Assembly (NCBI GenBank): GCA_026706845.1
Contig: JAPOXY010000148.1
Coordinates: 1-36,640, forward strand
DNA length: 36,640 nucleotides
Direction: 5' to 3'
Source: Gemmatimonadota bacterium
Lineage (GTDB): Bacteria; Latescibacterota; UBA2968
A program made the translations under genes and the position numbers. Under the pieces are notes generated by a model. It saw nothing but the letters and a program-made list of their open reading frames with translations, searched no databases and had not been told where the DNA came from. Below, piece by piece: positions 7,484 to 31,013 of the stretch; the stretch's first letter is position 1, and each line of letters begins with the position of its first letter.

Positions 7484-8194
7484 ATGCCTTTAAGCGAGTT
7501 CGAGTTTTTCGGTTTTGCCCATGTTGCCGCGATGGTTGTGATACTCGCTGTGCCGATTATTTTGACTCTTATTGTTAAGTGGCTCAATTCGGAGAGGGCG
7601 ACTCAGGCGATCTGCTATGGGTTTGCGGGTGTGATTGCGCTCAACGAGGTGCTGAACTGGAGCTATCGATTGGCGACGGTTGGAGTGCATGAGTTTGTGC
7701 GGGAGTATATGCCGTTGCATGTGTGTGGGATTACTGTTTTCGCTGCTGTGGTTATGCTCATTTTACGACGACAGACAGCTTACGAGATTACCTATTTCTG
7801 GGGACTTGTCGGCGCGACCAATGCGGTTGTGACGCCTCAGCTTGAGTTCGGCTATCCGCAGTATCGCTTTTTTCAATATTTTATCGCGCATGGCGGTATT
7901 GTGGCTGCTGCGCTGTTCGCCACATGGGGCCTGGGTATGCGGCCGACAGGCAGATCGGTTTTGCGCGTTTTTGTTTTGCTGAATCTTCTGGCGATTGTTT
8001 TGATCGGCGTCAATTTGATGCTGGGGAGCAATTATATGTTTCTCTGTCAACCGCCTGATACAAAATCGCCTTTTTTCTTTTTGCCGTGGCCGTGGTATCT
8101 CTTATTTCTCGATGGCATAGCACTGGTGTTATTTTATGTGCTTTTTATTCCGTTCGCGAGGAGAAAGTTATACGCTTCAAATTCGTCGAGATGA
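7484..8194 (+). CDS. YwaF/TIGR02206-family integral membrane protein
   Basis: About 236 residues with six to seven hydrophobic segments. Family landmarks are the central MPLHVCGI, a Thr/Gln/Pro-rich loop (NAVVTPQLEFGYPQYRFFQYFIAHGG) and a C-terminal GSNYMFLCQPP...PWPWYLL, all typical of the YwaF family, whose function is unknown. Two adjacent ATGs at 7481 and 7484 follow GGAGAA; I chose the second for spacing. The stop overlaps the ATG of the sensor gene by four bases (ATGA at 8191-8194), so the two are probably co-translated. Confidence 0.85.
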   Translation: MPLSEFEFFGFAHVAAMVVILAVPIILTLIVKWLNSERATQAICYGFAGVIALNEVLNWSYRLATVGVHEFVREYMPLHVCGITVFAAVVMLILRRQTAYEITYFWGLVGATNAVVTPQLEFGYPQYRFFQYFIAHGGIVAAALFATWGLGMRPTGRSVLRVFVLLNLLAIVLIGVNLMLGSNYMFLCQPPDTKSPFFFLPWPWYLLFLDGIALVLFYVLFIPFARRKLYASNSSR

Positions 8195-9435: not shown

Positions 9436-10715
9436 ATGGCTCTGAATGGATTCTTAAACGCCACCCTCAGCTTTCCTGGGGTATTGATCCGCGTGCGGTT
9501 TACGAAGCGTTTGATGGCTCTTTGTGGTTTGCCGCGGCTGTGGATTGGTGGTTATATGATTTTCTCGGTGGGGTCGTGGTTTTCGATGGGACGAGTTGGA
9601 CACATCACCCTGTTCCGAGTATGACGCATTATGCGCGTGGGATCGGACAGAGTTCTGATGGAATTTTGTGGTTTGGTGGGCAATTGTTCGGTTTTGATGG
9701 GGTGCGGAGAGTGCAGTTCACGGGTCCAGAGTTGTTGGCAGAAGATTTTGTTGATGCCGTTTATACGACGCCACGGGGAGACCTGTGGTTGGGTTCCCGA
9801 ACTTATGGGGTGTTTCGGTATAATGGGACGGAGTGGCAGCGGTTCGATTATGGAGACGGGCTGGCGGACAATAGTGTACAAAGCATTTTCCAGGATCGGG
9901 ACGGTGCGATCTGGGTGGGGACAGCAGAGGGTGTCAGCCGGTTTGATGGGCGCACATGGTTAACACAGGCTTTGCCTTCCGAATTTCCGCGCGCAGAGTT
10001 TTATGATCCGATTCTTCAGTCTGGAGACGGAACGATCTGGCTCAATTCTGTATCTGATGTAGATACCTGGCTCAAAAGGTCAGCACCTCGGGGTATAGCA
10101 TCATCCTGTACCTTGCGTACTATTCGATATGTGCCAGAGACCGATCCACCTGAGACCCTGATGACCCTTGCTCCGGATGAGGTGCCCGAGGATGGAAAGA
10201 TAACTTTCGCCTGGTCAGGGACAGATCTCTGGCGAAGTACTTTGAGCGAAGATTTGCAATACGCCTATCGTTTGGACGGTGGGGAGTGGTCGCCTTATGG
10301 CGGGGATACGGTCCGATCTTTTGAGGATCTGGATGTGGGGACGCATACGATTGAGGTTAAAGCGCGCGATCTGGCGTTTAACGAAGATCCTGTGCCGTCG
10401 CTGGTGCAGTTCAATGTTGTTCCGATGGTGTGGCGCCGTCCGTGGTTTATTGGGTTGATTTCAGGGTTTGTGAGCCTTACGGGGTATCTGGTTTCGCGGA
10501 TTATTGTCAGGGATCGGAGGTTGCAGCAAGCAAATGAAGATCTTGCATCTGCTAATGAGACGCAGCTTTTGCAGTCCGCGCGTCTGGTGTCGCTGGGGCA
10601 GATGGTTGCTGGTGTGGCACATGAACTGAACCAGCCGCTGACTGTTGTCGAGACAACTACCGGGGATATTTGTTTGCGGCTGGTGGAGGGGGTGCAGCTT
10701 GAGACGGACCAGTAG
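9414..10715 (+). pseudogene. Sensor histidine kinase, fragment 2: propeller, Y_Y_Y domain, membrane segment, HisKA
   Basis: This frame carries on the propeller without a credible start of its own (only a TTG at 9402, no ribosome site). More blades run to about 10090 (DGAIWVGTAEGVSRFDG). Next comes a Y_Y_Y-like beta-sandwich at about 10140-10420 (YAYRLDGGEWSPYG...LDVGTHTIEVKARD). A membrane segment follows at about 10444-10505, then a short coiled coil and the dimerisation/phosphoacceptor motif LVSLGQMVAGVAHELNQPL, whose His is intact. The frame ends in an amber codon at 10713-10715 (LETDQ-stop-REMMEDV). The sequence continues in the same frame with the rest of the kinase, so the stop is a point nonsense change or is read through. 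Confidence 0.8.
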
Positions 10716-11288
10716 AGGGAGATGATGGAGGATGTTCGAGGGGTGGTGGATCGGAAAGCAGGGACAGTCGATCAATTGCGGGTGTATTCGCGCGATGAAT
10801 CCGAGGAGCCGCGCCAGGCGATGGATGTGAATGAGGTGATTGCGAGTAGTCTGAAGTTGATGGGTTCACAACTCGAGAATCACGGGGTTGATCTGGTGCT
10901 GGATCTTTCTGATGGGCTTCCAGTCGTGTGGGGACATCCGCATCCGCTCGAGCAGGTGGTTCTCAATTTGCTGTCCAATGCCCGGGATGCAGTGGATGAG
11001 CGGGCTGAGGTGGAGGGGGTGGGTTATGATAAGCGGATCTGGATCCGAACGCGCGTTGAGGGCGATGTGGTTGTTCTTGATGTGGAGGATAATGGGGTTG
11101 GGATGGATGAGGCGATCCGGCAACGTCTTTTTGAGCCTTTTTTTACGACTAAGGATGCAAACCGGGGTACGGGTTTGGGGTTGTCGATTATTTATGCCAT
11201 TGTTCGCAGTCACGATGGGGAGATTACTGTGGAGAGTGAACAGGGCATAGGGACGACGTTTAAGGTGGTGTTGCCGGTGGTGGCGTAG
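10716..11288 (+). pseudogene. Sensor histidine kinase, fragment 3: HATPase_c domain
   Basis: In the same frame as fragment 2, directly after its amber stop. The end of the helical dimerisation domain (EMMEDVRGVVDRKAGTVDQL) is followed by a complete HATPase_c ATP-binding domain: N box NLLSNARDAV, G1 box VEDNGVGM, F box FFTTKD, and G2 box GTGLGLSI. The first ATG is at 10722 (GAGGGAG just ahead overlaps the stop region), so a free ATPase domain could be made by re-initiation. There is no sign of a receiver domain. The last 29 bases overlap the end of the convergent GH113-like gene. With two lesions in one gene, this kinase is probably non-functional unless both are sequence errors. Confidence 0.82.
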
Positions 11289-13116: not shown

Positions 13117-14361
13117 ATGAATTCATCGACTGGCCGTTGGGTAAGCGACGACGACTTTTTTAATCGCGAACGCGAGTTGCGGATACTGAAGACACGGGTT
13201 CGTGACGGCAATCACATATTGCTTACAGGACAGCGGCGTATGGGAAAGACCAGTATTGCCCGAGAACTCGGGCGACGGCTTGAAGCTGAGGATTGGATTT
13301 TTCTCTTCGCTGATGTCGAGGGGGCGACCTGTGTGGAGGACGCAGTCGCAGACATAGCACAGGCCGTGCATCCCATTCGTCCCATTGCGTCTCGTTTTGC
13401 TATCGAGATGAAACGCTGGTTGGATGATAACATTGAGGAAATCAACGCGTACGAATTTCGCGTCAAAATTCGTGCTGGTCTGGATGCAGGAAGCTGGCGT
13501 CGTTACGGGGAACAACTGCTTCGCGATTGCGCTATGCAGGACAAGCCAGTGCTCCTCGTCATTGACGAGCTACCGATTCTTCTCAAGCGAATGCTTAATG
13601 GTGACGACGGTGTCAGACAAGTCGATGAGTTTCTGAGCTGGTTGCGCGGCGTGCTTCAAGATATCGGGAATGGGTCTCTGGTCCTCATCGTATCCGGCAG
13701 CATTGGGCTTACCCCTCTGGTAAATCGGCTAGGCATACCCGATCGCATTAATCATCTCTATCCTTTTCGCCTGGGACCGTGGGACCGCAACACCAGTATT
13801 GATTGTTTCCAAAGTCTCGCGGAGAGCTACAAATTACAAGTTGAGGACGACGTGGCAAACGCGGTGTATGACGCACTCGGCGTTGGTATCCCGCACCATG
13901 TACAGTCCTTTTTTGCACGATTGAGGGACCACGCTATCATGCAAGGGCAGGACCGGGTGACAGTAGAAGATGTCGAGGAGGTCTATCGCACGGGGCTTCT
14001 CGGTCCTTCCGGACAGAACGATCTCGTACACTACGAAACGCGTCTCAAAGAGGCATTAGAAGATGATAGCCATACCATCGCTATGGAGATTCTCGCCGAG
14101 GCAGCCACCCAGGGAGTGTTCACACCAGGAGCGCGGCGTTGCCTCGAAAGGCTATACGCCAGGGTGGTTGACGATGCACAGGGGCGCATCGCATATACAC
14201 TCGAAATTCTGATACATGACGGCTATCTCGAAGATGGGGAAGATGGTTATCGCTTTCCGTCGCGCCTGCTGAAGGACTGGTGGTCGGCGCGTTTCCGCGA
14301 TCATCACATTCCCCTCGAAAACCGCCGTTCTGACGATAAATCATTGGGAGACAGGCAATGA
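13117..14361 (+). CDS. Archaeal-ATPase-like (STAND/AAA) NTPase, first gene of the pair
   Basis: 414 residues from the ATG at 13117, preceded by GAGGA; the open frame extends further upstream but only through the promoter. The NTPase core has Walker A GQRRMGKT at 38-45, Walker B VLLVIDELPI at 145-154, and a sensor-like LVLIVSGSIGL near 188. This matches the PF01637/archaeal-ATPase clade of STAND NTPases. The C-terminal part is helical and ends in a winged-helix-like segment (YTLEILIHDGYLEDGEDGYRFPSRLLKDWW) found at the same place in that clade. No toxin or membrane domain is attached. The stop overlaps the start of the next NTPase gene (ATGA at 14358), so the two proteins are probably made together and may form one complex (inference). 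Confidence 0.85.
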   Translation: MNSSTGRWVSDDDFFNRERELRILKTRVRDGNHILLTGQRRMGKTSIARELGRRLEAEDWIFLFADVEGATCVEDAVADIAQAVHPIRPIASRFAIEMKRWLDDNIEEINAYEFRVKIRAGLDAGSWRRYGEQLLRDCAMQDKPVLLVIDELPILLKRMLNGDDGVRQVDEFLSWLRGVLQDIGNGSLVLIVSGSIGLTPLVNRLGIPDRINHLYPFRLGPWDRNTSIDCFQSLAESYKLQVEDDVANAVYDALGVGIPHHVQSFFARLRDHAIMQGQDRVTVEDVEEVYRTGLLGPSGQNDLVHYETRLKEALEDDSHTIAMEILAEAATQGVFTPGARRCLERLYARVVDDAQGRIAYTLEILIHDGYLEDGEDGYRFPSRLLKDWWSARFRDHHIPLENRRSDDKSLGDRQ

Positions 14362-17333
14362 ACAAGTCCGATCAACGAATTCGCAAGTTCAATCCGGGGA
14401 CATTTCTATCTGACGAGGAGGTGATCGAGCAGTTCGTGGTGAGAAAACACGAACTCAGTATCGCGCTTGAGGTGCTGCGCGGGAATATCGATTCACCATC
14501 CTGCCAGCATGTTCTGGTGGTCGCGCCTCGGGGGCGGGGAAAAACCATGTTGCTCGCGCGCGTCGCGGCGGAATTGAACACTGATGACGGGCTCTCCGAA
14601 TGTCTTTTACCAGTTCGGTTTATGGAAGAGAGTCACGAGGTGCTCAATATCGCGGATTTCTGGCTCGAAACCCTGTTCCACCTTGCGCGCGAGAGCGTCA
14701 GGCACGATCCCGTACTCGCACAGGAACTGCGAGAGACGCACGCCGATCTGAGAGATCGCTGGCGCGAAAAGGAACTCGCAGATCGCGTCTTTGCTGCTGT
14801 CCTGGATGCATCGGACCGGCTGGGCAAAAAACTCGTTCTCATGGTCGAAAATCTACAGTCAATTGGCGAGAACGTGGATGACGATTTCGGCTGGCAGCTA
14901 CGCGGCGCATTGCAATCAGAGCCTCAGATCATGTTGCTCGCCACCGCCACGAGTCGCTTCAAGGGTCTGGACGACGCAGAACAGCCGTTCTTCGAGCAGT
15001 TCCGAATACTGGATCTGGAACCATTAAATACCGAAGAATGCCGTCGTCTGTGGCAGGTTGTCACCGGCGACGAGGTGAGCGACCATGGGATCAGACCTCT
15101 CGAGATTCTGACCGGAGGTAGTCCTCGCCTTCTGGTCATAGTCGGCGAGTTTGCGCAGCATCGGTCGTTGGGCCAGTTGATGGAAGAACTGGTGACATTG
15201 ATTGACGACCATACCGAGTATTTTCGCAGTCACCTGGAGGTCCTGGCCAGTGTCGAACGTCGCGTGTATCTCGCGGTGATTGATCTTTGGCAACCGTCGA
15301 ACGCGGGCGAGATCGCGGTACGGGCGCGCAAGGACATTCGAACCGTGTCAACACTACTCCGCCGCCTCGCCAACAGGGGTGCGGTCATCGTGGAAGGGAC
15401 TGGCAGGAAACGAATGTATGTTGCCTCGGAACGTCTCTATAGCATCTATTACAAACTGCGACGCGAACGCGATGAGGCGGCGGTTGTAGCAAATCTAATC
15501 TATTTTATGGCAGTGTTCTATAGCGAAGCGGAACTGGTAGAGATGTCCGATGAGCTGATTGCGGAGGCGGCGCGATTACCGGTGATTCGCGAGGGTTTTG
15601 AACGGGCAATCGCCGAACAGCCGCAAGTCGGCAGTGTGTTCTCTAACATAGTGAGGCCAAGTATTGATCAGGCATCTGACCTCGCTACGTCAATTGATAA
15701 TAAGAGTTTAGAACAACTGTTAGAAGAGATTAATACAGCGTTCAACGAGGAAGCATTCGAGAAGGTTATCGAGATAGTGGATCAAGCTTTTGCTGCTTGG
15801 AGCGCAAATTGGCCTCAAGTGCCAGAACCATTGATCGCTATGGGATTTCTTAACAAGGCATTAGCACACGGGGAACTCGGCGAGTTTGCGGCTGCAATTT
15901 CTGCCTACGACGAGGTGATCGCCCGCCTTGGAGACAGTGATATACCCGATCTCCAAGAGCGTGTCGCTTGGGCATTGTTCAGAAAGGGAAATGTGCAAAG
16001 ACAACTCGGCGAGTTCGCGGCTACGGTTGCTGCCTACAACGAAGTGGTCGTACGCTTTGGTGACAGCGATGTACCTGCTCTTCAAGTTCTGGTCGCTTGG
16101 GCATTGTGCGACAAGGGAGATACTCACGAGGAACTCGGTGAGTTTGCAGCTGCGCTTTCTGCCTACGACGAACTAATTAAGCGTTTTGGCGACAATGATG
16201 CACCTACTCTTCAAGAGCATGTTGCTTGGGCGTTGTGCAAAAAGGGAGATATGCAAGGACGACTCGGCGAGTTTATATCGGCGATTGCGACTTATGATGA
16301 AGTGGTCGCCCGCTTTGGCGATAGTGACGCACTCTATCTCCAGGAGCGTGTTGCCTGGACATTGTGCGCCAAGGGAGATGTGCAAGCGCAACTCGACGAG
16401 TTCGCAACTGCGTTAATAACTTATGATGAAGTGATCGCACATTTTGATGACAGTGATGCACCTGCTCTTCAGGTTCCTGTCGCTCGGGCATTGTGCGGCA
16501 AGGGAAATATGCAAGTACAATTGGGCGAGTTAGCAGCTGGGGTAACGATTTATGATGAAGTGATCGCCCGCTTTGGTGACAGCGATATAATTGATCTCCA
16601 AGAGCGAGTCGCCTGGGTATTATGCAAAAAGGGAGATGTGCAAAGCCGACTTGGCGAGTTTACGTCGGCGGTAGCGTGTTATGATGAAGTGATCACACGC
16701 TTTGGTGACAGCGAGGCTCTCATGCTTCAGGAGCGTGTTGCTTGGGCATGGTCCGGCAAGGGAGATGTGCAAGGACGACTCGGCGAGTTTGTGGCTGCGA
16801 TTTCTGCCTATGACGAAGCGGTCGCTCTCTTGGGTGATAGTGATGCACCCGATCACCAGGTTCCGGTCAACTGGACATTGTTCAAAAAGGGTATGAGACA
16901 AATCCAGATGGGCCGTGCGAAAGAAGCTCTACGCACCTGTGAAGAGATTGAAAGAAGACTCGATGCCTTGACCGGCAATGAGAAGATTGAGTTTTCATGG
17001 CGCACAAAGTGTCTGCAGGTTTTGGCGCTGATGGTCCAGAAAAAACGTCGGGCTGCCGTGGACATGTTCCGGTCTGCGTATGCTGTGTTCGTACCTGACA
17101 ACGAAACGATAATGCACGAGATGTTACATTTTGTGCCTGAGTTGATTGCACAGGGTGTTTCGGAGCGTGACCTTATTGAGATTCTGTCCAGCGACAAGGA
17201 GAAATTGGACGCATTAGTACCTCTCATAGTTGCTCTGCTACAGCGTGCTGGCGAGGTGGTTCGCGCGCCTGTGGAAGTCCTTGAGGTCGCGAAGGATATC
17301 AATAAGGATATTGACGCGAAAATGGCGAGTTGA
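14358..17333 (+). CDS. STAND-type NTPase with winged helix and eight TPR-like repeats
   Basis: 991 residues. The NTPase domain occupies about 20-290: Walker A APRGRGKTM at 56-64, a Walker B strand LVLMVENL near 159-166 with Glu-Asn where Asp-Asp/Glu is usual, sensor strand LLATATSRF, and GGSPRLL at 253-259, the GxP motif of STAND/archaeal ATPases. A winged-helix segment follows (about 300-375, EIAVRARKDIRTVSTLLRRLANRGAVIVEG). After a linker come eight 43-residue TPR-like repeats (residues 508-851, consensus GEFAAAISAYDEVIARFGDSD), a degenerate ninth, and a helical end. Sensor domain plus STAND NTPase is the plan of many signal-transduction and defence NTPases; no effector domain is recognisable here, so the partner gene or the C-terminus may supply it. 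A paralogue lies at 18342. Confidence 0.88.
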   Translation: MNKSDQRIRKFNPGTFLSDEEVIEQFVVRKHELSIALEVLRGNIDSPSCQHVLVVAPRGRGKTMLLARVAAELNTDDGLSECLLPVRFMEESHEVLNIADFWLETLFHLARESVRHDPVLAQELRETHADLRDRWREKELADRVFAAVLDASDRLGKKLVLMVENLQSIGENVDDDFGWQLRGALQSEPQIMLLATATSRFKGLDDAEQPFFEQFRILDLEPLNTEECRRLWQVVTGDEVSDHGIRPLEILTGGSPRLLVIVGEFAQHRSLGQLMEELVTLIDDHTEYFRSHLEVLASVERRVYLAVIDLWQPSNAGEIAVRARKDIRTVSTLLRRLANRGAVIVEGTGRKRMYVASERLYSIYYKLRRERDEAAVVANLIYFMAVFYSEAELVEMSDELIAEAARLPVIREGFERAIAEQPQVGSVFSNIVRPSIDQASDLATSIDNKSLEQLLEEINTAFNEEAFEKVIEIVDQAFAAWSANWPQVPEPLIAMGFLNKALAHGELGEFAAAISAYDEVIARLGDSDIPDLQERVAWALFRKGNVQRQLGEFAATVAAYNEVVVRFGDSDVPALQVLVAWALCDKGDTHEELGEFAAALSAYDELIKRFGDNDAPTLQEHVAWALCKKGDMQGRLGEFISAIATYDEVVARFGDSDALYLQERVAWTLCAKGDVQAQLDEFATALITYDEVIAHFDDSDAPALQVPVARALCGKGNMQVQLGELAAGVTIYDEVIARFGDSDIIDLQERVAWVLCKKGDVQSRLGEFTSAVACYDEVITRFGDSEALMLQERVAWAWSGKGDVQGRLGEFVAAISAYDEAVALLGDSDAPDHQVPVNWTLFKKGMRQIQMGRAKEALRTCEEIERRLDALTGNEKIEFSWRTKCLQVLALMVQKKRRAAVDMFRSAYAVFVPDNETIMHEMLHFVPELIAQGVSERDLIEILSSDKEKLDALVPLIVALLQRAGEVVRAPVEVLEVAKDINKDIDAKMAS
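15879..16910 (+). repeat. Eight tandem 129-bp TPR-encoding repeats
   Basis: The reading frame repeats every 129 bases exactly; GEF/GEL-type unit starts fall at 15879, 16008, 16137, 16266, 16395, 16524, 16653 and 16782, with a degenerate unit beginning at 16911. Units differ mainly at a few positions within each helix pair, so the array has probably changed length by recombination. Confidence 0.92.
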
Positions 17334-18341: not shown

Positions 18342-20792
18342 ATGAATAAGTCCGATCGGCCGATCCGCAAGTTCAATCCGGGGACGTTTCAGTCCGATGA
18401 GGAGGTGATTGAGCAGTTTGCGGTGGGGAAACACGAACTCGATATGGTGCTTGGGGTGCTGCGCGGGAATATCGGTTCACCATCGTGTCAGCACGTTCTG
18501 GTGGTCGCGCCCCGGGGTCGGGGAAAGACTATGTTGCTCGCGCGCGTCTCGGCGGAGTTGAATGCTGACGAGGAACTCTTTAGATGTTTTTTGCCGGTTC
18601 GGTTTATGGAGGAGAGTCACGAGATATTCGATCTCGCGGATTTTTGGCTCGAGACGCTGTTCTATGTTGCGCGGGAGAGTGTCGGGCACGATTCCGCGCT
18701 CGCGCAGGCGTTGCGAGAGGCGCACGCCGATCTGACTGATCGATGGGACGAGGAGGCGCTCGAAGATCGCGCCCGTGACACTGTCCTGGATGCGGCGGAC
18801 CGATTGGGTAGGAAACTCGTTCTTATGGTGGAAAACCTGCAGACACTCTGCGAAGATGTGGATGACGATTTTGGCTGGCAACTGCGCGGCGCGTTGGAGT
18901 CCGAGCCTCGGATTATGCTGCTCGCTACTGCGACGAGTCGCTTTGAGGGGCTGGAAGATGCAGAGGAACCGTTCTTCGAGTTGTTCCGAATCATCGATCT
19001 GGAACCGCTGGGTACTGAGGACTGTTGCCGTCTGTGGCAGGTGGTCAGCGGCGATGAGGTGACAGAGCGCGAGATCAGGCCACTCGAGATTCTGACTGGG
19101 GGCAATCCCCGCCTTCTGGTTATGGTCGCTGAGTTCGCACACCACCGGTCGTTGCGCCAGTTGATGGAAGAATTGGTGACGCTGATTGACGAGCATACCG
19201 AGTATTTTCGCAGTTATCTGGAGGCTTTGCCCAGGAGCGAACGCCGCGTGTATCTCGCGTTGATTGATTTTTGGCGACCATCGAGTACGAGCGAGATCGC
19301 GGCGCGGGCGCGTATGGGGGTTCGGTCCGTATCAACTATGCTCGGTCGGCTTGTCACCCGGGGTGCGGTTGTTGTGGAGGGGACTGGCAGGAAGCGTTTG
19401 TACGCGGCAGGAGAACCTCTCTATAGCATCTATTACAAGCTGCGGCGCGAGCGCGACGAGGCGATAGTTATGAGAAGTCTGATCCATTTTATGATGGCGT
19501 TCTACGGGATAGGCGAGTTGTACCAGATGTCGGGGCGGCTGAATCTGGGGGCGGCGATTATTCGCGAGGGTATTGAGCGTGCGCTCGTCGAACAACCGCA
19601 CGTTGAGGACAGTTTTTTGCGCGTGGCAGGGTCGGCCATCGAATATATACCGGACAGGGCGACGGCAAATGCACCATTCTCGGCGGAACTGCGTTTAAAA
19701 GAGGAGATCCAATCGGCGCTCGATGAGAAAGAATTTGAACGGGTTATCGAGATTGGGGACCATTTTATCGCTTCTGGAGGCGTGGATGCATCTCTCATGC
19801 CGGAGTCTCTCGTTGCCTACATATTGCATATGAGGGCTATTGCTTGTGAGAAATTGGAAGATTTCCAGGAGGTGGTCGCGGTCTGCGACGAGATGGTTGA
19901 GCGTTTCGACGATGCAGGTGACCAGACACTTCTGGCGCGGATGGCTCGGGTATTGATCCACGGGGCAAGAGCGAGATATGAACTCGGAGAGTTGGATCTG
20001 ACGGTGTCGGCTTATGAGGATGTGATTGAGCGTTTTGGCTCCAGTGATGCTCCCGATTTCCAGTTCCCGGTCGTTCTGGCGTTGTTAAAGCAGGGAGATT
20101 TGCAAGTTCAACAGGGGGAGTTGGACCTGGCGATGTCGGCTTATGAGGATGTGATCGCGCGTTTTGGGACCAGCGATGCGTCGGGAATTCAACTTATGGT
20201 CGCTCTGGCATTGTCTCAAAAGGGAGATTTACAAGCCCAACTGGGAGAGTTGGATTTGGCAGTATCTGCGTATGAGGATGTGATCGCGCGTTTTGATACC
20301 AGCGATGTGCCAGCGATCCAGGTTCTGGTCGCCTGGGCATTGTCCCAAAAGGGTATGATACAAATTAAGGTAGGGCGTATGAAAGAAGCTTTGCTCATAA
20401 GTGAAGAGCTTGAGGGAAGACTCGGTGCGTTGGCTGACGATGAGAAGGTGATGTTTGTATGGCGAGCAAGGTATGTCCAGGCTTTGGCACTGCTGCTAAG
20501 GAACAGACAACGGATGGCTATGGATGTGTTTCAGTCGGCGTATGCTGTGTTCTTACCTGACAACGAGACGATGATGTACGAGATGCTACAACTCGTGCCC
20601 GATTTGATCGCAAACGGTGCTCCTGAGCGCGATCTTGTCGGGATTCTTCTGTCCAGGGGCAAATCCGATGCGCTGGAACCTCTTATTGTTGCCTTGCGAC
20701 AGCGTACCGGCGAGGTGGTTCGCGCGCCTGTGGAGGTTCTCGAGGTCGCGAGGGATATCAATAGGCGTATTGAGTTTTTCCGGAATGTATAA
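18342..20792 (+). CDS. STAND-type NTPase with winged helix and TPR-like repeats, paralogue of the gene at 14358
   Basis: 816 residues, started at the ATG after GGGAG. The first 380 residues run almost parallel to the protein at 14358: same opening MNKSDxxIRKFNPGTF, Walker A APRGRGKTM, Walker B LVLMVENL, sensor LLATATSRF, GGNPRLL and winged helix. The linker after residue 390 is diverged. The repeat part is shorter, with three clear 43-residue units (19986-20372, consensus GELDLAVSAYEDVIARF) and degenerate units on both sides. The last 140 residues again match the paralogue closely (FQSAYAVFLPDNETMMYEM...VVRAPVEVLEVARDIN). Unlike the first locus, no companion ATPase gene precedes it. No recognisable effector domain is present. 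Confidence 0.88.
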   Translation: MNKSDRPIRKFNPGTFQSDEEVIEQFAVGKHELDMVLGVLRGNIGSPSCQHVLVVAPRGRGKTMLLARVSAELNADEELFRCFLPVRFMEESHEIFDLADFWLETLFYVARESVGHDSALAQALREAHADLTDRWDEEALEDRARDTVLDAADRLGRKLVLMVENLQTLCEDVDDDFGWQLRGALESEPRIMLLATATSRFEGLEDAEEPFFELFRIIDLEPLGTEDCCRLWQVVSGDEVTEREIRPLEILTGGNPRLLVMVAEFAHHRSLRQLMEELVTLIDEHTEYFRSYLEALPRSERRVYLALIDFWRPSSTSEIAARARMGVRSVSTMLGRLVTRGAVVVEGTGRKRLYAAGEPLYSIYYKLRRERDEAIVMRSLIHFMMAFYGIGELYQMSGRLNLGAAIIREGIERALVEQPHVEDSFLRVAGSAIEYIPDRATANAPFSAELRLKEEIQSALDEKEFERVIEIGDHFIASGGVDASLMPESLVAYILHMRAIACEKLEDFQEVVAVCDEMVERFDDAGDQTLLARMARVLIHGARARYELGELDLTVSAYEDVIERFGSSDAPDFQFPVVLALLKQGDLQVQQGELDLAMSAYEDVIARFGTSDASGIQLMVALALSQKGDLQAQLGELDLAVSAYEDVIARFDTSDVPAIQVLVAWALSQKGMIQIKVGRMKEALLISEELEGRLGALADDEKVMFVWRARYVQALALLLRNRQRMAMDVFQSAYAVFLPDNETMMYEMLQLVPDLIANGAPERDLVGILLSRGKSDALEPLIVALRQRTGEVVRAPVEVLEVARDINRRIEFFRNV
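19986..20372 (+). repeat. Three tandem 129-bp TPR-encoding repeats
   Basis: GELDL starts fall at 19986, 20115 and 20244, each exactly 129 bases apart. Period and helix layout equal those in the eight-unit array of the paralogue, but the sequence of the units differs. Confidence 0.9.
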
Positions 20793-20864
20793 AAATATTA
20801 AAATACATTGAGACATAATCTGAATGCGTGATCTTGATGAGTATCAGAATCATTGTTTTGCGCA

Positions 20865-22046
20865 TTATGTGTTTCCCAATATGCGAATGTATAATGTGCC
20901 GCTGAATCGCACATGTGCGCGTTTCAGTTTTTCGATTTCTTGCTTTTTTTCTGTAAGTTCTTGTTCCATCCGCCTCAATTCGAGATAGTGAATTGGCGGA
21001 TAAGCCATTTTTGCGATTTCCAGTTTTTCACAAATTCTCAATATTTCTTCTGATAGATTTTTTTTGCGTTCTGATAAATTTTGAGGGACGGGCTGAAGCC
21101 GCGAGATATCTACTTTTTGGGTAAATTGAAATTTCAATGTCCGGAGGGTGACGGTGATGGTATTGGGGGTTTCACGCCCGGGGGAGAATGTTTCAGTTGC
21201 TTTGAGCTGTCCAGATGCAAAACTGTTTTCGGGGATTTGCTTTACCAGCTCTTCCCAGGTTTTGTTTTTCAATTGGAGCGTCTGAATTCTCACGGGGTGG
21301 TCCGTCTCGCGCACGCGCACTTTGTCCGGTAAGATGGCACCGTGTTCTCCGCACGTTTGAACCTGTCCGTTGTATATGATCCAGAACATGGCGGGCCTGG
21401 CATCGAGGATCACGCCTTCTCCGCGTATGTGCTCCCGCGTGTGTCGCCAGCGTCCTTCAAAGGCTAAGATGGTTTCTGTGTCGGCTTGTCGGTAATCTGC
21501 GTATGCAGCAGGGGGCGTGGCCATGAGGTATCTGAATGATTTCCAGATGCCTCCCATGTGCAATACGGGCAGGAATATCAGGAGCATACATACGAGTCCG
21601 ATTAACAGGCAGCGTTCTCCCTTAGATCCGGTTTTGATTCTGTATTTTGCGCTGCCAGGGAAGACACAGACCGCTGAATAGGGATAAAATAGGGGTACGC
21701 CGCTTTTGGTGGCGCAATCGGCGACTATATGGCTCATGTAGCCCAGGAGCAAGGCCGCGTAACACGGGATTTGATAGATGAGCAGGGGCCAGATCATGAC
21801 CGATAGGGCGAGGAGGCAGAGCAGCGAGTGTGTGATTGTGCGGTGTCCCCATTGTCTCTCGATGGGGATAGATGCAAACGGGAGCACGCGACCGATATAA
21901 CTGTGCGGGGAATCTATATCCGGGAGCACGCTTCCTATGATGGCGCATGCGACAGCGGGGAGACTGCGGTGAAGGGGCAGGGAGAAGAACGAAAAGGATC
22001 CCGCTACGGTGAGCAGGCCAAATGCGATGTGTGTGGGTGCGGTCAT
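20865..22046 (-). CDS. YdjM-like membrane-bound metal-dependent hydrolase family protein with C-terminal coiled-coil domain
   Basis: 393 residues. The first 190 resemble the YdjM/DUF457 family: opening MTAPTHIAFGLL, the acidic motif GSVLPDIDSPHS (residues 38-49), HRTITHS (68-74), and GYMSHIVADC...GVPLFYP (102-120), with these His and Asp residues as probable metal ligands between four to five membrane segments. Hydrolase activity in this family is predicted, not shown, as far as I know. Residues about 195-393 are an additional soluble domain with TILAFEGRWRHTREHIRGEG and a final coiled coil of about 50 residues. It starts inside the stop of the upstream ATPase gene (ATGA at 22046-22043), so the two are translationally coupled under the sigma-54-like promoter at 22942-22957. 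Confidence 0.82.
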   Translation of the reverse strand: MTAPTHIAFGLLTVAGSFSFFSLPLHRSLPAVACAIIGSVLPDIDSPHSYIGRVLPFASIPIERQWGHRTITHSLLCLLALSVMIWPLLIYQIPCYAALLLGYMSHIVADCATKSGVPLFYPYSAVCVFPGSAKYRIKTGSKGERCLLIGLVCMLLIFLPVLHMGGIWKSFRYLMATPPAAYADYRQADTETILAFEGRWRHTREHIRGEGVILDARPAMFWIIYNGQVQTCGEHGAILPDKVRVRETDHPVRIQTLQLKNKTWEELVKQIPENSFASGQLKATETFSPGRETPNTITVTLRTLKFQFTQKVDISRLQPVPQNLSERKKNLSEEILRICEKLEIAKMAYPPIHYLELRRMEQELTEKKQEIEKLKRAHVRFSGTLYIRILGNT

Positions 22047-22888
22047 CGTCTGAACCTGTACGTGAAGAATCGTATGCCTACGAGTATCGCGCTGCCAATA
22101 CCGGCGAGGACATAGCCTTCCATACTGCCGATGCCGCGCATGAAGAATCGGGCTGCGACAACGACCAGCAGAAGCAACACCACAGCGAACGTAAGATCAA
22201 TCTGGTTTCGGGCGCCTGTGTGAGATACATGTCGCACGGCAGATCGGGTCACGGCGGGTTCTTTGCGGAGTTTTTCGACGATTTCGATGATGGCGCGCGG
22301 GTTGCCAGCACTTTGTTGCAATATGGAGGTTTCGGTCATGCGGTAGTCTTCTATGTCGGCGCCGGCAGTACACTGCCAGATCAGGTGTTTTGCTTCGGAG
22401 GTGGATAAGGGTTCTATTTCTATGCGATCGAATTTCCAGAAGTGTTTTTCATACGTTTTTACAATTTCTCGCAGGGCGGCTATGATGATGTACTTGCGGT
22501 TGAGTTTGTCGATTAGTCGCCCGACGGAGGGGGTTATATCTGATAAGTCATCTATAATTAAGACGCATTCGTTTTTTGTCACTGCGTCGAGTACTATGTC
22601 TGTCCAGGCTTGAATGGTCTCGCGAGCGTGCCGTTTTTTGATTTTTTCAAAGTCCTCAATGTGCGGATAGAGTTTTCCGCTTTTGTGAAGTTCTTCTGCA
22701 ATATTTATGAGGGCTTCTTTTATTGGGGATAGGGTTTTTACTTTGAGGACATGGTCTGCATCGACTTGCGCGAGGAGATGGCTTTTGCCTATGCCGACGG
22801 GACCGACTATCAGGGTGTCGATGCGTTTTGCCAAGTTTGTTTTTAACAGATGAAGTTTTTCTTTTCGTTCTACTGGCTGGTGTATCAT
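22043..22888 (-). CDS. Membrane-anchored archaeal-ATPase-like NTPase
   Basis: 281 residues. The P-loop domain has Walker A GPVGIGKS at 29-36, Walker B CVLIIDDLSD at 108-117, an arginine-containing IIAALRE strand, LSTSEAKHLI, and AGNPRAI at 194-200, the GxP signature of STAND/archaeal ATPases. Unlike most of them it ends in two membrane segments (about 231-250 and 258-276) separated by a short loop, so the ATPase would face the cytoplasm as a tail-anchored hairpin. AGGAGG lies nine bases before the ATG. It is the first gene of a two-gene operon with the YdjM-like protein; a joint membrane complex is likely, with unknown function. Confidence 0.85.
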   Translation of the reverse strand: MIHQPVERKEKLHLLKTNLAKRIDTLIVGPVGIGKSHLLAQVDADHVLKVKTLSPIKEALINIAEELHKSGKLYPHIEDFEKIKKRHARETIQAWTDIVLDAVTKNECVLIIDDLSDITPSVGRLIDKLNRKYIIIAALREIVKTYEKHFWKFDRIEIEPLSTSEAKHLIWQCTAGADIEDYRMTETSILQQSAGNPRAIIEIVEKLRKEPAVTRSAVRHVSHTGARNQIDLTFAVVLLLLVVVAARFFMRGIGSMEGYVLAGIGSAILVGIRFFTYRFRR

Positions 22889-22941
22889 GAGAAACGCCCT
22901 CCTGTATGGGTTGGAATTGAAACTTTGTGCTCTTCATATAA

Positions 22942-22957
22942 TGCAAAAAGCGTGCCA
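22942..22957 (-). promoter_or_regulatory. Sigma-54 (-24/-12) promoter
   Basis: On the minus strand TGGCAC (22957-22952), five bases, then TTGCA (22946-22942) fits the sigma-54 consensus at all conserved positions, including the GG and GC doublets at the right distance. The start site would be near 22930, about 42 bases ahead of the ATPase ATG at 22888. Sigma-54 promoters need an activator ATPase bound upstream; candidate sites lie at 23034-23092. Confidence 0.8.
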
Positions 22958-23033
22958 AAATTTGCCAAAAATTCGTAAGTGCTTGCAGGAGAGCGTGTTT
23001 TTAGAAAATGCTGAAAAATGGGCCTGTGGGGAA

Positions 23034-23092
23034 CTGTTTCAAATGAAACAGTTGGTGTGTCAAATGAAACAGTTGGGATAGGAATGAAACAG
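23034..23092. promoter_or_regulatory. Candidate activator-binding sites upstream of the sigma-54 promoter
   Basis: Three related sites recur here: a perfect palindrome ctgtttca aa tgaaacag at 23034-23051, a near copy gtgtcaaatgaaacag at 23057-23072, and a half site aatgaaacag ending at 23092. They lie about 80-140 bases upstream of the promoter, the usual place for sigma-54 activators, several of which bind TGT-N-ACA type palindromes. A small plus-strand frame across 22887-23081 is probably not a gene. Bases 23093-23199 hold nothing else I can name. Confidence 0.7.
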
Positions 23093-23199
23093 GGGGATTA
23101 GAGGGTACCGTCAGGGGTCTGCATCGCTATAATGACTCTGCCAGATACAAAAAGCCCGACCAGGTGGGGACAGGTGAGGTGCATTCAACAATATCTCGT

Positions 23200-24810
23200 T
23201 TAACGCAATTCACCAAAATGGGAAACAAAAATGAGAAAATCCAGAAAATCAACGGGGCCATCCCCGTTGAAATCCAATTTTGGATCGTAATTACTATCCG
23301 TGTGCAAAAGCTTAAAACCATTCCCAAAGCGCAGAAAGTCGGAAAATGCAACGCGCCCATCGCCATCGACATCACATACGAGATCCGTCGCCATGCTTCC
23401 GCCCGTTGACAGCGTGTAATTCACGCGCCGCCTTTCTCCCGAAAGCGATGTTTCCATCACAATAAATACTACCTCGTCAAAACGGTTGGCTCCTGGAATT
23501 ATCACCGTTGTCCCGCGTGGGTACAATAGTTCGACACCGGACGGAGAGATTAGCATAACCAGCAACGTCCAGTCCCCCTGGTCATCCAGCGAAAACACCC
23601 CTCGAAGCCCGCCAAAGATATTTGAAGTATCTACGCGCAAATATGTCGTCCCCAAATGATCAACCGTTTCAGACCCTTCAAAAGAACCACCTGTGCCGAG
23701 GGGTATATTGGCATGCTTTATCGAGGGCAAATCGCGCGCTTCAACATAATACCCGGGGCGGGCACGCTCATCCGTCAAATAATTCCACGCGGCAAACCGC
23801 GGCATCACCTGGGCAAATTCGCCCAGAGGCATTCCATCATCAATAAGCGACAAACTGTATTTGCTCGAATCGCGTTTTTTGAGCAACTCCCAAACGCCTT
23901 TGATCACATCCGCTCCATAAACCTGCTCGACGTGATGGGCAAAAATCGACGCGCCGAAAGGATGGCGACTTCCAGAATCTTTGTCCAATGACGCTTCGGG
24001 ATCGTCGTAGAAACACGAATAATAGCTCGGGCAACTCATGTACTGATAAAAATCATTTACTTCGGGATAGGCTACATCCTCCATCCAGGTCGCCGTGGCT
24101 TCCTGCCACCACGCAGCGGCAAAATCGGCATAATACCCAAATTGAATCGCGTGAAAAAACTCGTGTGCAGCCGTCACGCGCAAACCATCCAATCCGCGTG
24201 ACTCGTAAATATTCTCTGCATAATTATTGTCAATTTCTATATAACTCGGCGTTGTCAACTCTCTAGGTACAATCGGCCAAGCATAGCCATAAGCCCGCAG
24301 AAAGGCGAGATTTTTAATATACACATCGTAAACACCATCGCCATCGGATGGAGGGGGATTATAGCCCAGTTGATTGATCTCCAAATCCCAAACATCCTCA
24401 AAAACCCGCGCGGCCTCATCGACATAATCCGGTACACCATTGGCGTCTGTATCGGTTGGAGCAACGGCGTGTATCCCCACCGTATCGTAGTGAATTTTGA
24501 AATGCCCCCCCGAAGACAGAATTGAATGACTCAGAATAGGGCGCTGCTGGAGAAACGCAAATGCCTCCTTGGCTGCGGGAGGCAAACGATCCCAATTCGC
24601 GGTTAAACCCCTTATTGCCGATGTCCCACAAATCGCCCTATCCAGTCGAAACTCGCTATCAGCGGGCAGAACTTCGGGGAAAAAATGGGCACACGCACGA
24701 CAGTAAATATCGTGCAATTCAGTCCCGGGTATAAAAATGGGCGGGACTTGTGCATGCGCGGATTTACCCGCGAATAAAATAATCGCCAACAAAACAGCAC
24801 GTCTCCCCAT
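23200..24810 (-). CDS. Secreted HExxH metalloprotease-like protein with C-terminal dockerin-like repeats
   Basis: 536 residues from the ATG at 24810, two bases after the end of pyrK; an earlier TTG start would overlap pyrK. A signal peptide ends near AHAQ. Residues about 100-330 resemble the MXAN_6640-type putative metalloproteases: HFKIHYDT, TDTDANGVPDYVDEAA, GDGVYDVYI, then the zinc motif HEFFHAIQFGY at 216-226 with a downstream WWQEATATWMED carrying the third ligand/acid. A beta-rich region follows. The last 55 residues hold two Asp-rich repeats (VDGDGRVAFSDFLRFGNGF and FNGDGPVDFLDFLIFVSHFG), equivalent to those in the GH113-like protein. It is the last gene of the pyrimidine cluster but has no evident link to that pathway. 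Confidence 0.82.
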   Translation of the reverse strand: MGRRAVLLAIILFAGKSAHAQVPPIFIPGTELHDIYCRACAHFFPEVLPADSEFRLDRAICGTSAIRGLTANWDRLPPAAKEAFAFLQQRPILSHSILSSGGHFKIHYDTVGIHAVAPTDTDANGVPDYVDEAARVFEDVWDLEINQLGYNPPPSDGDGVYDVYIKNLAFLRAYGYAWPIVPRELTTPSYIEIDNNYAENIYESRGLDGLRVTAAHEFFHAIQFGYYADFAAAWWQEATATWMEDVAYPEVNDFYQYMSCPSYYSCFYDDPEASLDKDSGSRHPFGASIFAHHVEQVYGADVIKGVWELLKKRDSSKYSLSLIDDGMPLGEFAQVMPRFAAWNYLTDERARPGYYVEARDLPSIKHANIPLGTGGSFEGSETVDHLGTTYLRVDTSNIFGGLRGVFSLDDQGDWTLLVMLISPSGVELLYPRGTTVIIPGANRFDEVVFIVMETSLSGERRRVNYTLSTGGSMATDLVCDVDGDGRVAFSDFLRFGNGFKLLHTDSNYDPKLDFNGDGPVDFLDFLIFVSHFGELR

Positions 24811-24811
24811 C

Positions 24812-25618
24812 TCAGTCCCCCCAGACAATTTCGTGGGCGTTGATGACGGGTCCTTCGAGGCAGACGCAGCGATAGCGGCGGTCTTCGGTGGGATATGTTT
24901 TGTATTCGACTACGCATCCGACACAGGCGCCAAAACCGCAGGCCATGTGGTTTTCGAGGGAGGCATAGCAGGGGGCGTTTAATTCGGCGGCGATGTGGGC
25001 TACGCGCGCCATCATGGGATGGGGACCACAGGTGAGGATGGTGGTGTGGTTTGGAAGGGTGTGTTCGGCAATGAGTTCTGTGACAAATCCGCGGTGTCCT
25101 ATGCTGCCGTCATCGGTGGCGATGTGGATGGGTAGGTCGGTGGGTAAGAGTGCGGACATGTCGGGCAGGCGCGCGGTATTTGCCGCGCCCATGAGGTAGA
25201 TCATGTCGGGACGGCGGTCGGGGTGTTCCCAGGCCAAAAATGCGAGGGGGACGAGGCCGACGCCGCCTGCGACGAGGAGGATGCGTTTGGTTTTTGGGGG
25301 GGCAAAAGGGTTGCCCAGTGGGCCGCTGACGTCAAATGGGTCGCCGCATTGGGCAGAGGATAGACGTTCGGTGCCGGGTCCGATGACGTCGTAGATGAGG
25401 TCGAGCCATCCAGCTTCGCGGTCTGCGCGCAATACGCTGAAGGGACGGCGAAGATAGGGGGATAGGCCCGGGTCAGTCAGGATTTGCAGGAATTGCGCCG
25501 GGCGAGAGGCGGTTGCGAGCCGGGGCGCGTGCAGGCGCATGAGATATACGCCCTGTGCAATGGGTTCGTTTTTTTGTACGACGGCAGTTTCGGAGATGAA
25601 GTTCGGGATTTCGGGCAT
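24812..25618 (-). CDS. pyrK: Dihydroorotate dehydrogenase electron-transfer subunit
   Basis: 268 residues, normal for PyrK. It passes electrons from dihydroorotate oxidised by PyrD to NAD. Visible features are the FAD-binding RRPFSV, the NAD-binding AGGVGLVPL and LTCGPHPMM, and the [2Fe-2S] cysteine cluster CGFGACVGC with a later CVC (RYRCVCLEGPV). pyrD is not in the window. The gene lies in the same cluster as the two carB genes, six bases after the TPR-TonB gene, which fits pyrimidine synthesis. Confidence 0.93.
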   Translation of the reverse strand: MPEIPNFISETAVVQKNEPIAQGVYLMRLHAPRLATASRPAQFLQILTDPGLSPYLRRPFSVLRADREAGWLDLIYDVIGPGTERLSSAQCGDPFDVSGPLGNPFAPPKTKRILLVAGGVGLVPLAFLAWEHPDRRPDMIYLMGAANTARLPDMSALLPTDLPIHIATDDGSIGHRGFVTELIAEHTLPNHTTILTCGPHPMMARVAHIAAELNAPCYASLENHMACGFGACVGCVVEYKTYPTEDRRYRCVCLEGPVINAHEIVWGD

Positions 25619-27750: not shown

Positions 27751-29562
27751 TTAAGAAGTGTGAAAGTCCTGGAGTGAACGAATGCGAATTGTGCTGTTGT
27801 TTTTGAGCGATTGGATGCCAGCAACAGCGGCGGCGGCTCCCGATAAGGTGGTTGTGTAGGGCAGGCCGTATTGTATGGCTGCTTTGCGTATTTCAGGGTC
27901 GGCGGCCTGAGATTGTTCTCCTGCGGGTGTGTTGATCATGAGAGATATTTCGCCGTTTTTGATGGCGTCGAGTATGTTTGGGCGCCCTTCTTGAATTTTG
28001 AAGATCCGATTACAGGCGATGTTGTGGCTTTTGAGAAAGGCGCAGGTTCCCCCTGTGGCAATGAGGCGAAAGTCCATGTCGGATAGTTGTTGGGCAATCG
28101 GTACAAGTCCTTCTTTGTCGCGGTCGTTGACGCTTAAAAATACGGTTCCCTCCTGGGGCAAGCGCACACCTGCGCCGAGTTGCGCTTTTTGGAAGCTGAG
28201 GCCAAAGTCGGTGTCTATGCCCATGACTTCGCCGGTGGATTTCATTTCGGGACCGAGGACGGTGTCAACACCGGGAAATTTGTTGAAGGGCAAGACGGCT
28301 TCTTTGACGGCGATGTGATTGATGGGGACTTCCCGGGTAAAGCCCTGTTCTACAAGTGTGCGCCCGACCATTGCGCGGGCAGCGACTTTGGCCAGGGGCA
28401 CGCCAATGGCTTTGCTGACAAAGGGCACTGTGCGCGATGCCCTGGGGTTGACTTCTATAATAAATACGTCTTCGCCTTGAATGGCAAACTGAATGTTCAT
28501 GAGGCCGACGACATTGAGTGCTCTGGCCAGGGCGTGTGTGTGGCGGCGCAGTTCGTCGAGGTTGGCGCTGGAGATCTGATAAGGGGGCAAGACGCAGGCG
28601 CTGTCGCCAGAGTGTACGCCCGCGCTTTCGATGTGTTGCATGATGCCGCCAATGACGACTGCCGTTGGATCTGCTACGGCATCGACGTCAAATTCGTGTG
28701 CGTCTTCTAAGAACCGATCGATGAGGATGGGGCGCTCTGGAGAGGCTTCTATGGCATTGCGCATATAGGCGATGAGGGCTTCGCGGTCATATACGATCGC
28801 CATTGCGCGGCCCCCGAGGACGTAAGAGGGGCGCACGAGGACCGGATATCCGATTTGTTCGGCTATGGCGATTGCTTCGTCGGTGCTTATTGCGGTGCCG
28901 TTTTCGGGTTGTCGTATGTCCAGTTCTTTGATGAGTGCGCCAAAGCGCTTGCGGTCTTCGGCAAGGTCAATGGCGTCGGGCGATGTGCCGGCGATGTTGA
29001 GGCCCCCGCGTTCGAGGTCGCGCGCGAGGTTGAGCGGTGTTTGTCCGCCGAATTGAACGATGACGCCGTCGGGTTGTTCAACATCGGCTATGCTGAGTAC
29101 GTCTTCAGCGGTGAGCGGTTCAAAGTAGAGTTTGTCGGATGTGTCGTAGTCGGTGGAGACGGTTTCGGGGTTGGAGTTGACCATGATGGTCTCAAAGCCG
29201 TCTTCTTTGAGGGCATAGGAGGCGTGGCAACAACAATAGTCGAATTCGATGCCCTGTCCAATGCGATTGGGACCGCCGCCCAGGATCATGATTTTTTGGC
29301 GATCGGATCGGATGGCTTCGTTGTCTGTCTCATAGGTCGAGTAGTGATACGGCGTGTAGGCTTCAAATTCGGCCGCGCATGTATCTACGGTTTTGAAAAC
29401 GGGCGCGACGCCGAGTTCTTTGCGCAGGGCGCGAACAGCCCATTCGTCACTTTGCCACAGGTGTGCCAGTTGGCGGTCGGAAAAGCCGTATCGTTTGGCT
29501 TTGAGCAGGTCTGCGCGAGAGATACGCGATTTTAAGTCGTTGAGGGTGTGCTGTTTTGTCAT
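27751..29562 (-). CDS. carB: Carbamoyl-phosphate synthase large subunit, C-terminal part (split carB)
   Basis: 603 residues. It begins within the oligomerisation domain (LKSRISRADLLKAKRYGFSDRQLAHLW, then VDTCAAEFEAYTPYHYSTYE). Next comes the second ATP-grasp half, which makes carbamoyl phosphate from carbamate (GGGPNRIGQGIEFDYCCCHA, VNSNPETVSTDYDTSD, VQFGGQTPLN, EVNPRASRTVPFVSKA), then the MGS-like allosteric domain (about 470-603, IATGGTCAFLKSHNI). The ATG comes two bases after the stop of the N-terminal gene, in a different frame. All expected motifs are present across the two proteins, so together they should make a working enzyme for arginine and pyrimidine synthesis. Confidence 0.93.
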   Translation of the reverse strand: MTKQHTLNDLKSRISRADLLKAKRYGFSDRQLAHLWQSDEWAVRALRKELGVAPVFKTVDTCAAEFEAYTPYHYSTYETDNEAIRSDRQKIMILGGGPNRIGQGIEFDYCCCHASYALKEDGFETIMVNSNPETVSTDYDTSDKLYFEPLTAEDVLSIADVEQPDGVIVQFGGQTPLNLARDLERGGLNIAGTSPDAIDLAEDRKRFGALIKELDIRQPENGTAISTDEAIAIAEQIGYPVLVRPSYVLGGRAMAIVYDREALIAYMRNAIEASPERPILIDRFLEDAHEFDVDAVADPTAVVIGGIMQHIESAGVHSGDSACVLPPYQISSANLDELRRHTHALARALNVVGLMNIQFAIQGEDVFIIEVNPRASRTVPFVSKAIGVPLAKVAARAMVGRTLVEQGFTREVPINHIAVKEAVLPFNKFPGVDTVLGPEMKSTGEVMGIDTDFGLSFQKAQLGAGVRLPQEGTVFLSVNDRDKEGLVPIAQQLSDMDFRLIATGGTCAFLKSHNIACNRIFKIQEGRPNILDAIKNGEISLMINTPAGEQSQAADPEIRKAAIQYGLPYTTTLSGAAAAVAGIQSLKNNSTIRIRSLQDFHTS

Positions 29563-29564
29563 GG

Positions 29565-31013
29565 TTAGTCCATCAGGGCGGCGAGTTCTTTTTCGACTTC
29601 GACGAGTTGTCGCATGTTGTCGAGAAACCAGGGATCAATTTTGGTGGCGTCAAAAATTTCCTGTACGGATAGTCCAGCGTCATAAGCCGTTTTGAGATAG
29701 GCTAATCGCTGCGAGTTGGGTTCGCGCAGGCCGCGTTCGAGGGCTTCGCGCGAGAGGGTGTTGGGGTGGATGTCTTTGCCGTCGGCACCAAATCCCGCGC
29801 GGCCGATTTCGAGAGAGCGCAAGCCTTTTTGCAGTGCTTCTTTAAACGTCCGACCTATGGCCATGGTTTCACCTACGGATTTCATTTGTGTGCCCAACAG
29901 ATCAGCGGTTTGGGGAAATTTTTCAAATGTCCAGCGCGGGATTTTGATGACGCAATAGTCGATGGTGGGTTCAAATGAGGCGGGTGTTTCGCGCGTGATG
30001 TCGTTTTGTATTTCGTCGAGGGTGTATCCAATGGCGAGTTTGGCGGCTATTTTGGCGATGGGGAAGCCCGTGGCTTTTGAGGCGAGCGCAGAGCTGCGGG
30101 AGACGCGGGGGTTCATTTCTATGACGACGCGCCGGCCCGTGTTGGGATCTACTGCAAATTGGATGTTGGAGCCGCCGGTTTCCACGCCGATTTCTCGGAT
30201 GCAGGCGATGGCATCGTCGCGCATTTCCTGATATTCTTTGTCGGTGAGGGTTTGCGCGGGTGCCACGGTGATGGAGTCGCCCGTGTGTACGCCCATGGGA
30301 TCGAAGTTTTCTATAGAGCAGATGATGACGACGTTGTCGTTTTGGTCGCGCATGACTTCGAGTTCGAATTCTTTCCAGCCGATGATGGATTCTTCTACGA
30401 GAATCTCAGAGGTGGGCGATAGGCTGAGGCCGTGTGCAGCAGCGTGTCTGAATTCTTCGATGTTGTACGCGGTGCCAGCGCCTGTGCCGCCCAGGGTGTA
30501 GGATGGGCGGATGATGGCGGGAAATCCGATTTCAGCCGTGATGTCGAGTGCTTCTTTGAGGGTGTAGGCAAATCGGCCTTTGGGAAAGTCGAGGCCGATT
30601 TTGTCCATGGCTTTTTGAAAGGCTTCTCGGTTTTCGGCTTTTTCAATGGCGTGTGGTTTTGCGCCGATCATTTCGACGTTGAATTTTTCGAGTGTCCCCT
30701 GTTCGTGCAGGGCCATGGCGGTGTTGAGGCCCGTTTGCCCGCCCAGGGTTGGGAGGAGGGCATCCGGGTGTTCTTTTTCGATGATGGCTGCGCATACTTC
30801 GGGTGTGACGGGTTCGACATAAGTCTTATCAGCCATTTCGGGGTCGGTCATGATGGTGGCGGGGTTGCTGTTGACCAGTACGACTTCGTATCCCTCTTCT
30901 TTGAGGGCTTTGCAGGCTTGTGTGCCCGAGTAGTCAAATTCACAGGCTTGTCCTATGACGATGGGACCAGAGCCGATGAGCATTATTTTTTTGAGGTCGG
31001 TTCGTTTGGGCAT
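29565..31013 (-). CDS. carB: Carbamoyl-phosphate synthase large subunit, N-terminal part (split carB)
   Basis: 482 residues, opening [30 protein letters not shown]. It contains the complete first ATP-grasp half, which makes carboxyphosphate and carbamate: [58 protein letters not shown]. The first part of the oligomerisation domain follows, ending [12 protein letters not shown] and a TAA. Full-length bacterial CarB is near 1,070 residues, which is what the two genes add up to. Split carB genes are known in Aquifex and methanogens. carA is not in the window. Confidence 0.93.

Follow-up and report, generated by a model that had tools for sequence, protein, structure and literature searches.

A predicted sigma-54 enhancer-promoter leader upstream of an ATPase-YdjM operon and its paralogues in an uncultured bacterial phylum

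Upstream of an operon encoding an ATPase and a YdjM-domain membrane protein, we found a conserved leader that, judged from its sequence, probably (at a probability of about 0.8) combines an RpoN-dependent promoter with an upstream enhancer, where an NtrC-family response regulator would act at a set of dyads to drive this operon and its paralogous copies. The core of a preliminary description of this DNA, namely a sigma-54 promoter with enhancer-type sites controlling an ATPase/YdjM pair, is upheld by the presence of rpoN, the promoter in 23 of 23 complete leaders, phased dyads in 22 of them and a linked, co-occurring candidate activator. The window, which is the whole stretch of 36,640 nucleotides that was analysed, corresponds to contig C148 in an assembly of 279 contigs and 5.46 Mb (the window genome). 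Its features are listed in Table 1, together with the fusion gene of a second operon in the same genome.

Table 1. Leader and operon features in the window, and the fusion gene of the second operon (positions refer to the window unless a contig is named).
Feature	Position	Strand	Basis
YdjM-domain membrane protein, 393 aa	20865-22046	minus	Pfam YdjM (PF04307)
ATPase, P-loop AAA+/STAND-like domain, hydrophobic C-terminus, 281 aa	22043-22888	minus	weak Pfam matches and structure model
Ribosome-binding site, CAGGAGGG, leader-conserved	22897-22904	minus	reading of the window and alignment of 23 leaders
Sigma-54 -24/-12 promoter element, TGGCACGCTTTTTGCA	22942-22957	minus	exact match
Block of about 30 bp between array and promoter, AAAAACACGCTCTCCTGCAAGCACTTACG in the window copy	22974-23003	minus	alignment of 23 leaders
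Proximal dyad TGTTTCA-AA-TGAAACA, TGTTTCAAATGAAACA	23035-23050	none	direct reading and pattern search
Second dyad TGTGTCA-AA-TGAAACA, TGTGTCAAATGAAACA	23056-23071	none	21 bp from first dyad
Distal half-site TGAAACA	23085-23091	none	20 bp beyond right half of second dyad
Fusion gene (L034): tyrosine recombinase catalytic domain and membrane-anchored AAA+/STAND-like ATPase, then YdjM	G000:C37:651-2168		

The promoter element is the only exact match to the -24/-12 pattern in the window, and its -24 TGG begins 69 nt ahead of the ATPase ATG at 22888, which bears out the original reading of a full match well placed before the operon. With one mismatch allowed, the pattern averages 0.92 matches per dinucleotide-shuffled window, and the hexamers alone are therefore weak evidence in a single window. 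A scan for sigma-70 promoters and terminators returned 7 promoter-like sites versus 3.5 expected, with none in the leader, and an Rfam search of 20700-23400 gave nothing up to E=1. The proximal dyad begins 93 bp upstream of the -24 TGG, and the two dyads and one half-site read at 23035-23091 agree with the earlier count of two and a half sites in 59 bases. A distal half-site at 20 bp is found likewise in three further loci (L074, L075 and L076). The dyad sequence TGTTTCANNTGAAACA with up to two mismatches has 3 matches in the window, whereas shuffled windows average 0.11 and none of 100 reaches 3. The block between the array and the promoter contains CAA-N4-TTA, which recalls the IHF core. In the alignment of 23 leaders its core CTCCTGCAA and most of its positions are invariant or nearly so, giving it a conservation about equal to that of the promoter; it is possibly a site for a DNA-bending protein.

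Sigma-54 itself is encoded in the window genome: the search for rpoN, which had been proposed as a check, returned the gene with E=1.9e-58. The pattern TGGCAC-N5-TTGCW occurs 42 times genome-wide compared with once for a reversed-pattern control, so that -24/-12 promoters are abundant in this genome. For nine of these 42 promoters, an activator gene on the same strand has its AAA domain 566-669 bp upstream, which makes activator-before-target a habit of the window genome. Before the nine other activator-linked sigma-54 promoters, we found a weak and different inverted repeat in four cases and, by the criterion used, none in five; there is thus no general rule on inverted repeats at such promoters.

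A search for other promoters with TGTTTCA palindromes, likewise proposed beforehand, led to a second array and leader on contig C37. Allowing at most one mismatch, TGTTTCANNTGAAACA is found at 5 places in the whole genome; 4 of them are in the window array and one paralogous array (C37:2336-2372), and the remaining one is a lone match on C66. A looser pattern gives three dyads at C37. The alignment between the leaders of the window and of C37 is good as far as the array and poor farther out. The C37 leader is followed by a 505-aa tyrosine recombinase-ATPase fusion and then by YdjM to the end of the contig. The recombinase part matches PF00589 with E=3.1e-39 and has the R, HxxR, H and Y motifs, and the ATPase part shares 75% identity with the window ATPase. 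Outside the genus, G031 has a homologue of the fusion in the same gene order and G039 also has the fusion, both without this leader; a different inverted repeat, GATGTAGACC...GGTCTACATC, stands ahead of the fusion gene in these two genomes (L085 and L087), and upstream of the gene in both loci the -24/-12 pattern gives no match.

The ATPase matches AAA_16, ATPase_2 and nSTAND in Pfam weakly, always under the gathering score. Its AlphaFold model is of fair quality only (mean pLDDT 77, pTM 0.60), and the fold matches to RFC, ORC, NLR, MuB and TnsC, with TM scores of about 0.35-0.5, indicate on the strength of that model an AAA+/STAND protein and no more. The Walker motifs and the hydrophobic C-terminus are kept even in G019 and G031. 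The YdjM protein, whose gene has a 4-bp overlap with the end of the ATPase gene, matches PF04307 with E=1.3e-28 and 100.1 bits against a gathering score of 29 bits. PADLOC recognised no defence system for the ATPase, the fusion or YdjM; the ATPase had only a 36-residue match to Avs2 (E=0.00065). Most proteins encoded behind the leader belong to membrane or envelope types, and from its membrane proteins we would guess that the target operon works in the envelope. The membrane and envelope targets are in line with the published view that sigma-54 controls the bacterial exterior (PMC3162934), as a parallel and not as evidence.

Several features of the surrounding DNA were also observed. Two paralogous ATPase-TPR genes (14358-17333 and 18342-20792) adjoin the operon; in sister genomes the NtrC-type regulator lies between an ATPase-TPR gene and YdjM, while the window has only 72 bp there. 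On the other side, a gene for a putative metalloprotease bearing a dockerin (23200-24828) separates the array from a flavoprotein gene (24812-25618), and in the sister loci L077, L078 and L081 the leader comes directly after the same flavoprotein gene. Farther away, propeller and histidine-kinase frames at 8086-11288 (8086-9435, 9402-10715 and 10722-11288) resemble one sensor kinase split in three, and the large subunit of carbamoyl-phosphate synthase, named by eye, occupies 27751-31013 as two adjoining genes (27751-29562 and 29565-31013).

The leader was then followed across the genus. A BLAST search with the whole leader DNA against 22 genomes, 11 of the genus and 11 of other genera, found it in 10 of the 11 genus genomes and neither in G008 nor in the 11 genomes of other genera. 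A protein search with the fusion against 147 relatives, whose figures hold among the matches listed, strongest first, gave matches of at least 47% identity covering the ATPase in 10 of the 11 genus genomes; G008 had, among the matches listed, a general recombinase match only and none that covered the ATPase. Outside the genus, ATPase-covering matches of at least 47% were among those listed for G019, G031 and G039, and reading of these loci revealed no dyad array. From 26 BLAST matches we obtained 23 complete leaders, leaving out three with no recognisable start (G005:C11, G010:C123 and G002:C34); further matches that were short or on the opposite strand were read as dyad self-matches or short remnants and were not counted.

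All 23 complete leaders have the -24/-12 element, at -68 to -77 from the ATG, and 22 have dyads, one to three each and 53 in total. The spacing of neighbouring dyads is exactly 21 bp in 31 of 31 cases, which puts the activator sites on one helical face, as looked for at a sigma-54 promoter, and the proximal dyad begins 92-94 bp above the -24 TGG in every one of the 22 leaders. The exception (G007:C1:4270844-4271028, L185) has lost the array, and the CPBP gene behind it is internally shortened to 84 codons, as if it had decayed along with its switch. With at most one mismatch, the dyad pattern, searched in 16 genomes, occurs 4-11 times in each of the ten leader genomes, once in G008 and not at all in the five other-genus genomes searched; five leader genomes have a lone conserved TGTTTCAATTGGCACA outside the arrays. 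The genes behind the leaders encode the fusion, the ATPase alone, a CPBP protease (PF02517), an HlyD adaptor (PF16576, PF13437), YdjM or truncated versions. To judge from the encoded proteins, most leader junctions resemble in-frame deletions in an ancestral order of leader-(CPBP)-recombinase-ATPase-YdjM-HlyD. An exception to this pattern is G010:C113, where 32 bp left over from a leader lie between HlyD and YdjM; they could come from recombination.

The activator is likely an NtrC-type response regulator, to judge from the genes next to the operons. In G009 and G003, the gene for a 470-475-aa regulator of this type sits right before the array, in the same orientation (L068 and L071), and in G003, G005, G006 and G007 a 472-493-aa relative is encoded convergently at the 3' end of the window-type operon (L076-L079). 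The regulator gene borders both operon types in the sister genomes, where the domain order is REC-AAA-HTH_8, and G001 has a frame-split copy some kilobases from the operon. Six regulators that were compared are 78-95% identical to one another. The window genome encodes a full regulator of 494 aa on C96, 77-86% identical to those six, with all three domains over the cut-off (Response_reg, 1.1e-28; Sigma54_activat, 4e-70; HTH_8, 1.1e-11). This gene adjoins neither operon of the window genome; a regulator remnant that has lost its AAA+ part in an internal deletion of 737 bp lies beside the C37 operon. The loop that contacts sigma-54 reads GAFTDA in the C96 copy and in all copies read but one, that of G007, which has GAFTGA. 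At E <= 1e-120, the regulator is present in 9 of the 22 genomes, that is, in 9 of the 10 with the leader and in none of the 12 without it; at this threshold it was found neither in the leader-bearing G010 (470 contigs) nor in G008 or the 11 other-genus genomes. Since these are close relatives, the co-occurrence does not represent many independent events. The preliminary description had also envisaged an activator gene preceded by the same palindrome; a candidate regulator was identified, but the palindrome is absent around it in the window genome (L123), and the link between regulator and operon rests on adjacency in sister genomes and on co-occurrence. The receiver domain of the regulator implies a histidine kinase.

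What is observed are the sequence elements with their conservation and phasing, the presence of RpoN, and the linkage and co-occurrence of the regulator; from these we infer binding, phosphorylation, looping and transcription along the following lines. The NtrC-family response regulator would bind as dimers at two or three dyads of the form TGTKTCA-WW-TGAMACA, standing two helical turns apart. Once phosphorylated by a histidine kinase, it would form an AAA+ ring that contacts RNA polymerase-sigma-54 by looping to the -24/-12 element, and this looping would turn on the ATPase-YdjM operon and its paralogous copies, which carry the recombinase-ATPase fusion, the CPBP protease or the HlyD-type adaptor. 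As far as such elements can tell, the unit is a real sigma-54 enhancer-promoter, and the observation of a promoter with upstream sites is confirmed. The predicted regulon would be a new one, with a mechanism of a type already known.

An unlikely alternative is that the array binds a different regulator, either a repressor or another activator, while the linked NtrC-type protein serves another gene. The position of the regulator gene away from both operons in the window genome and its apparent absence from G010 would fit such an arrangement, and the conserved 30-bp block could have another partner. However, the regulator adjoins both paralogous operon types in several genomes and is co-present with the leader, and sigma-54 promoters need an AAA+ activator, for which no other candidate is linked.

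It is quite improbable that the dyads are parS-type sites for ParB, or for a ParB/Noc paralogue, which would serve chromosome organisation or local silencing and for which proximity to a promoter would be secondary. Both half-sites of the dyad are the same as those of parS TGTTTCACGTGAAACA, and parS-like sites exist in the genus: G008 has TGTTTCATGTGAAACA and CGTTTCACATGAAACA at the ends of mnmE and of rsmG, and CG-centred sites lie between rsmG and mnmE in G003 (TGTTTCACGTGAAACG) and G010 (TGTTTCACGTGGAACA). In contrast, none of the 53 leader dyads has a CG centre, all being centred on TT, TA or AA, and in G003 and G010 the CG-centred sites are separate from the arrays of the same genomes. 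G008 has its parS-like sites without the leader and without a linked regulator, and the strict 21-bp phasing together with the fixed distance to the promoter suits an activator array. The untidy part concerns the window genome and seven other leader genomes: a search at one mismatch gave no site centred on CG, TG or CA in them, which leaves their parS as either more diverged or unassembled and makes a weak spot in the case against ParB.

A more far-reaching idea, which we regard as a long shot, is that the leader acts as an exchange platform, an enhancer-promoter-start cassette with swapped cargo genes, perhaps by means of the recombinase-AAA+ fusion that it expresses. If true, a two-component signal would govern both expression and gene exchange; in a weaker form of this idea, the activator dyad arose from a ParB site or still cross-talks with one. 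Chance, in the form of a fortuitous -24/-12 match beside unrelated repeats, has practically no probability and was rejected: a window is expected to contain about one match to the promoter pattern when one mismatch is permitted, but the whole leader is kept in 23 copies with fixed geometry, which refutes chance as a full account, and the dyad count was reached in none of 100 shuffles.

The RpoN-dependent enhancer-promoter reading offers a testable regulatory unit in an uncultured phylum, with a promoter, activator sites, a candidate activator and target operons, and it would tie operons of a tyrosine recombinase-membrane-anchored AAA+ ATPase fusion to a specific signalling input. A literature search with 'Latescibacter' and 'sigma-54' found no published sigma-54 work on Latescibacter. 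The arrays are also a caution that TGTTTCA/TGAAACA dyads are not always parS.

Compared with known systems, the leader shares the half-sites TGTTTCA/TGAAACA with ParB/parS, but its 53 sites never have a CG centre and form a phased array before a promoter, whereas the parS-like sites stand beside rsmG/mnmE. The second gene of the operon encodes a membrane protein of the same family (PF04307) as E. coli YdjM; E. coli ydjM is a member of the LexA regulon (PMC4576408), in contrast to the sigma-54-type promoter here. The PEP-CTERM PrsK/PrsR system (PMC1569441) likewise has a two-motif element, an activator site with a sigma-54 site, before many genes and an NtrC-type response regulator with a matching phylogenetic profile. 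Our comparison with it concerns the element and the regulator, and the regulator of the window genome scores 407.3 bits against the PrsR model (TIGR02915), under the cut-off of 502.6. For the NtrC-family regulons of Clostridiales, a survey (PMC6615313) reports that most targets are co-localised with the activator gene, that most activator groups have multiple sites and that fifteen groups have TGT-N10-12-ACA sites, a form that includes the TGT-N10-ACA of our dyads. Both have an activator, here a candidate one, with sensor, AAA+ and HTH domains that often adjoins its target, multiple upstream dyads and a -24/-12 promoter; the leader described here differs in its phylum and its targets, in the strict 21-bp spacing of its dyads and in the placement of one leader before several genes.
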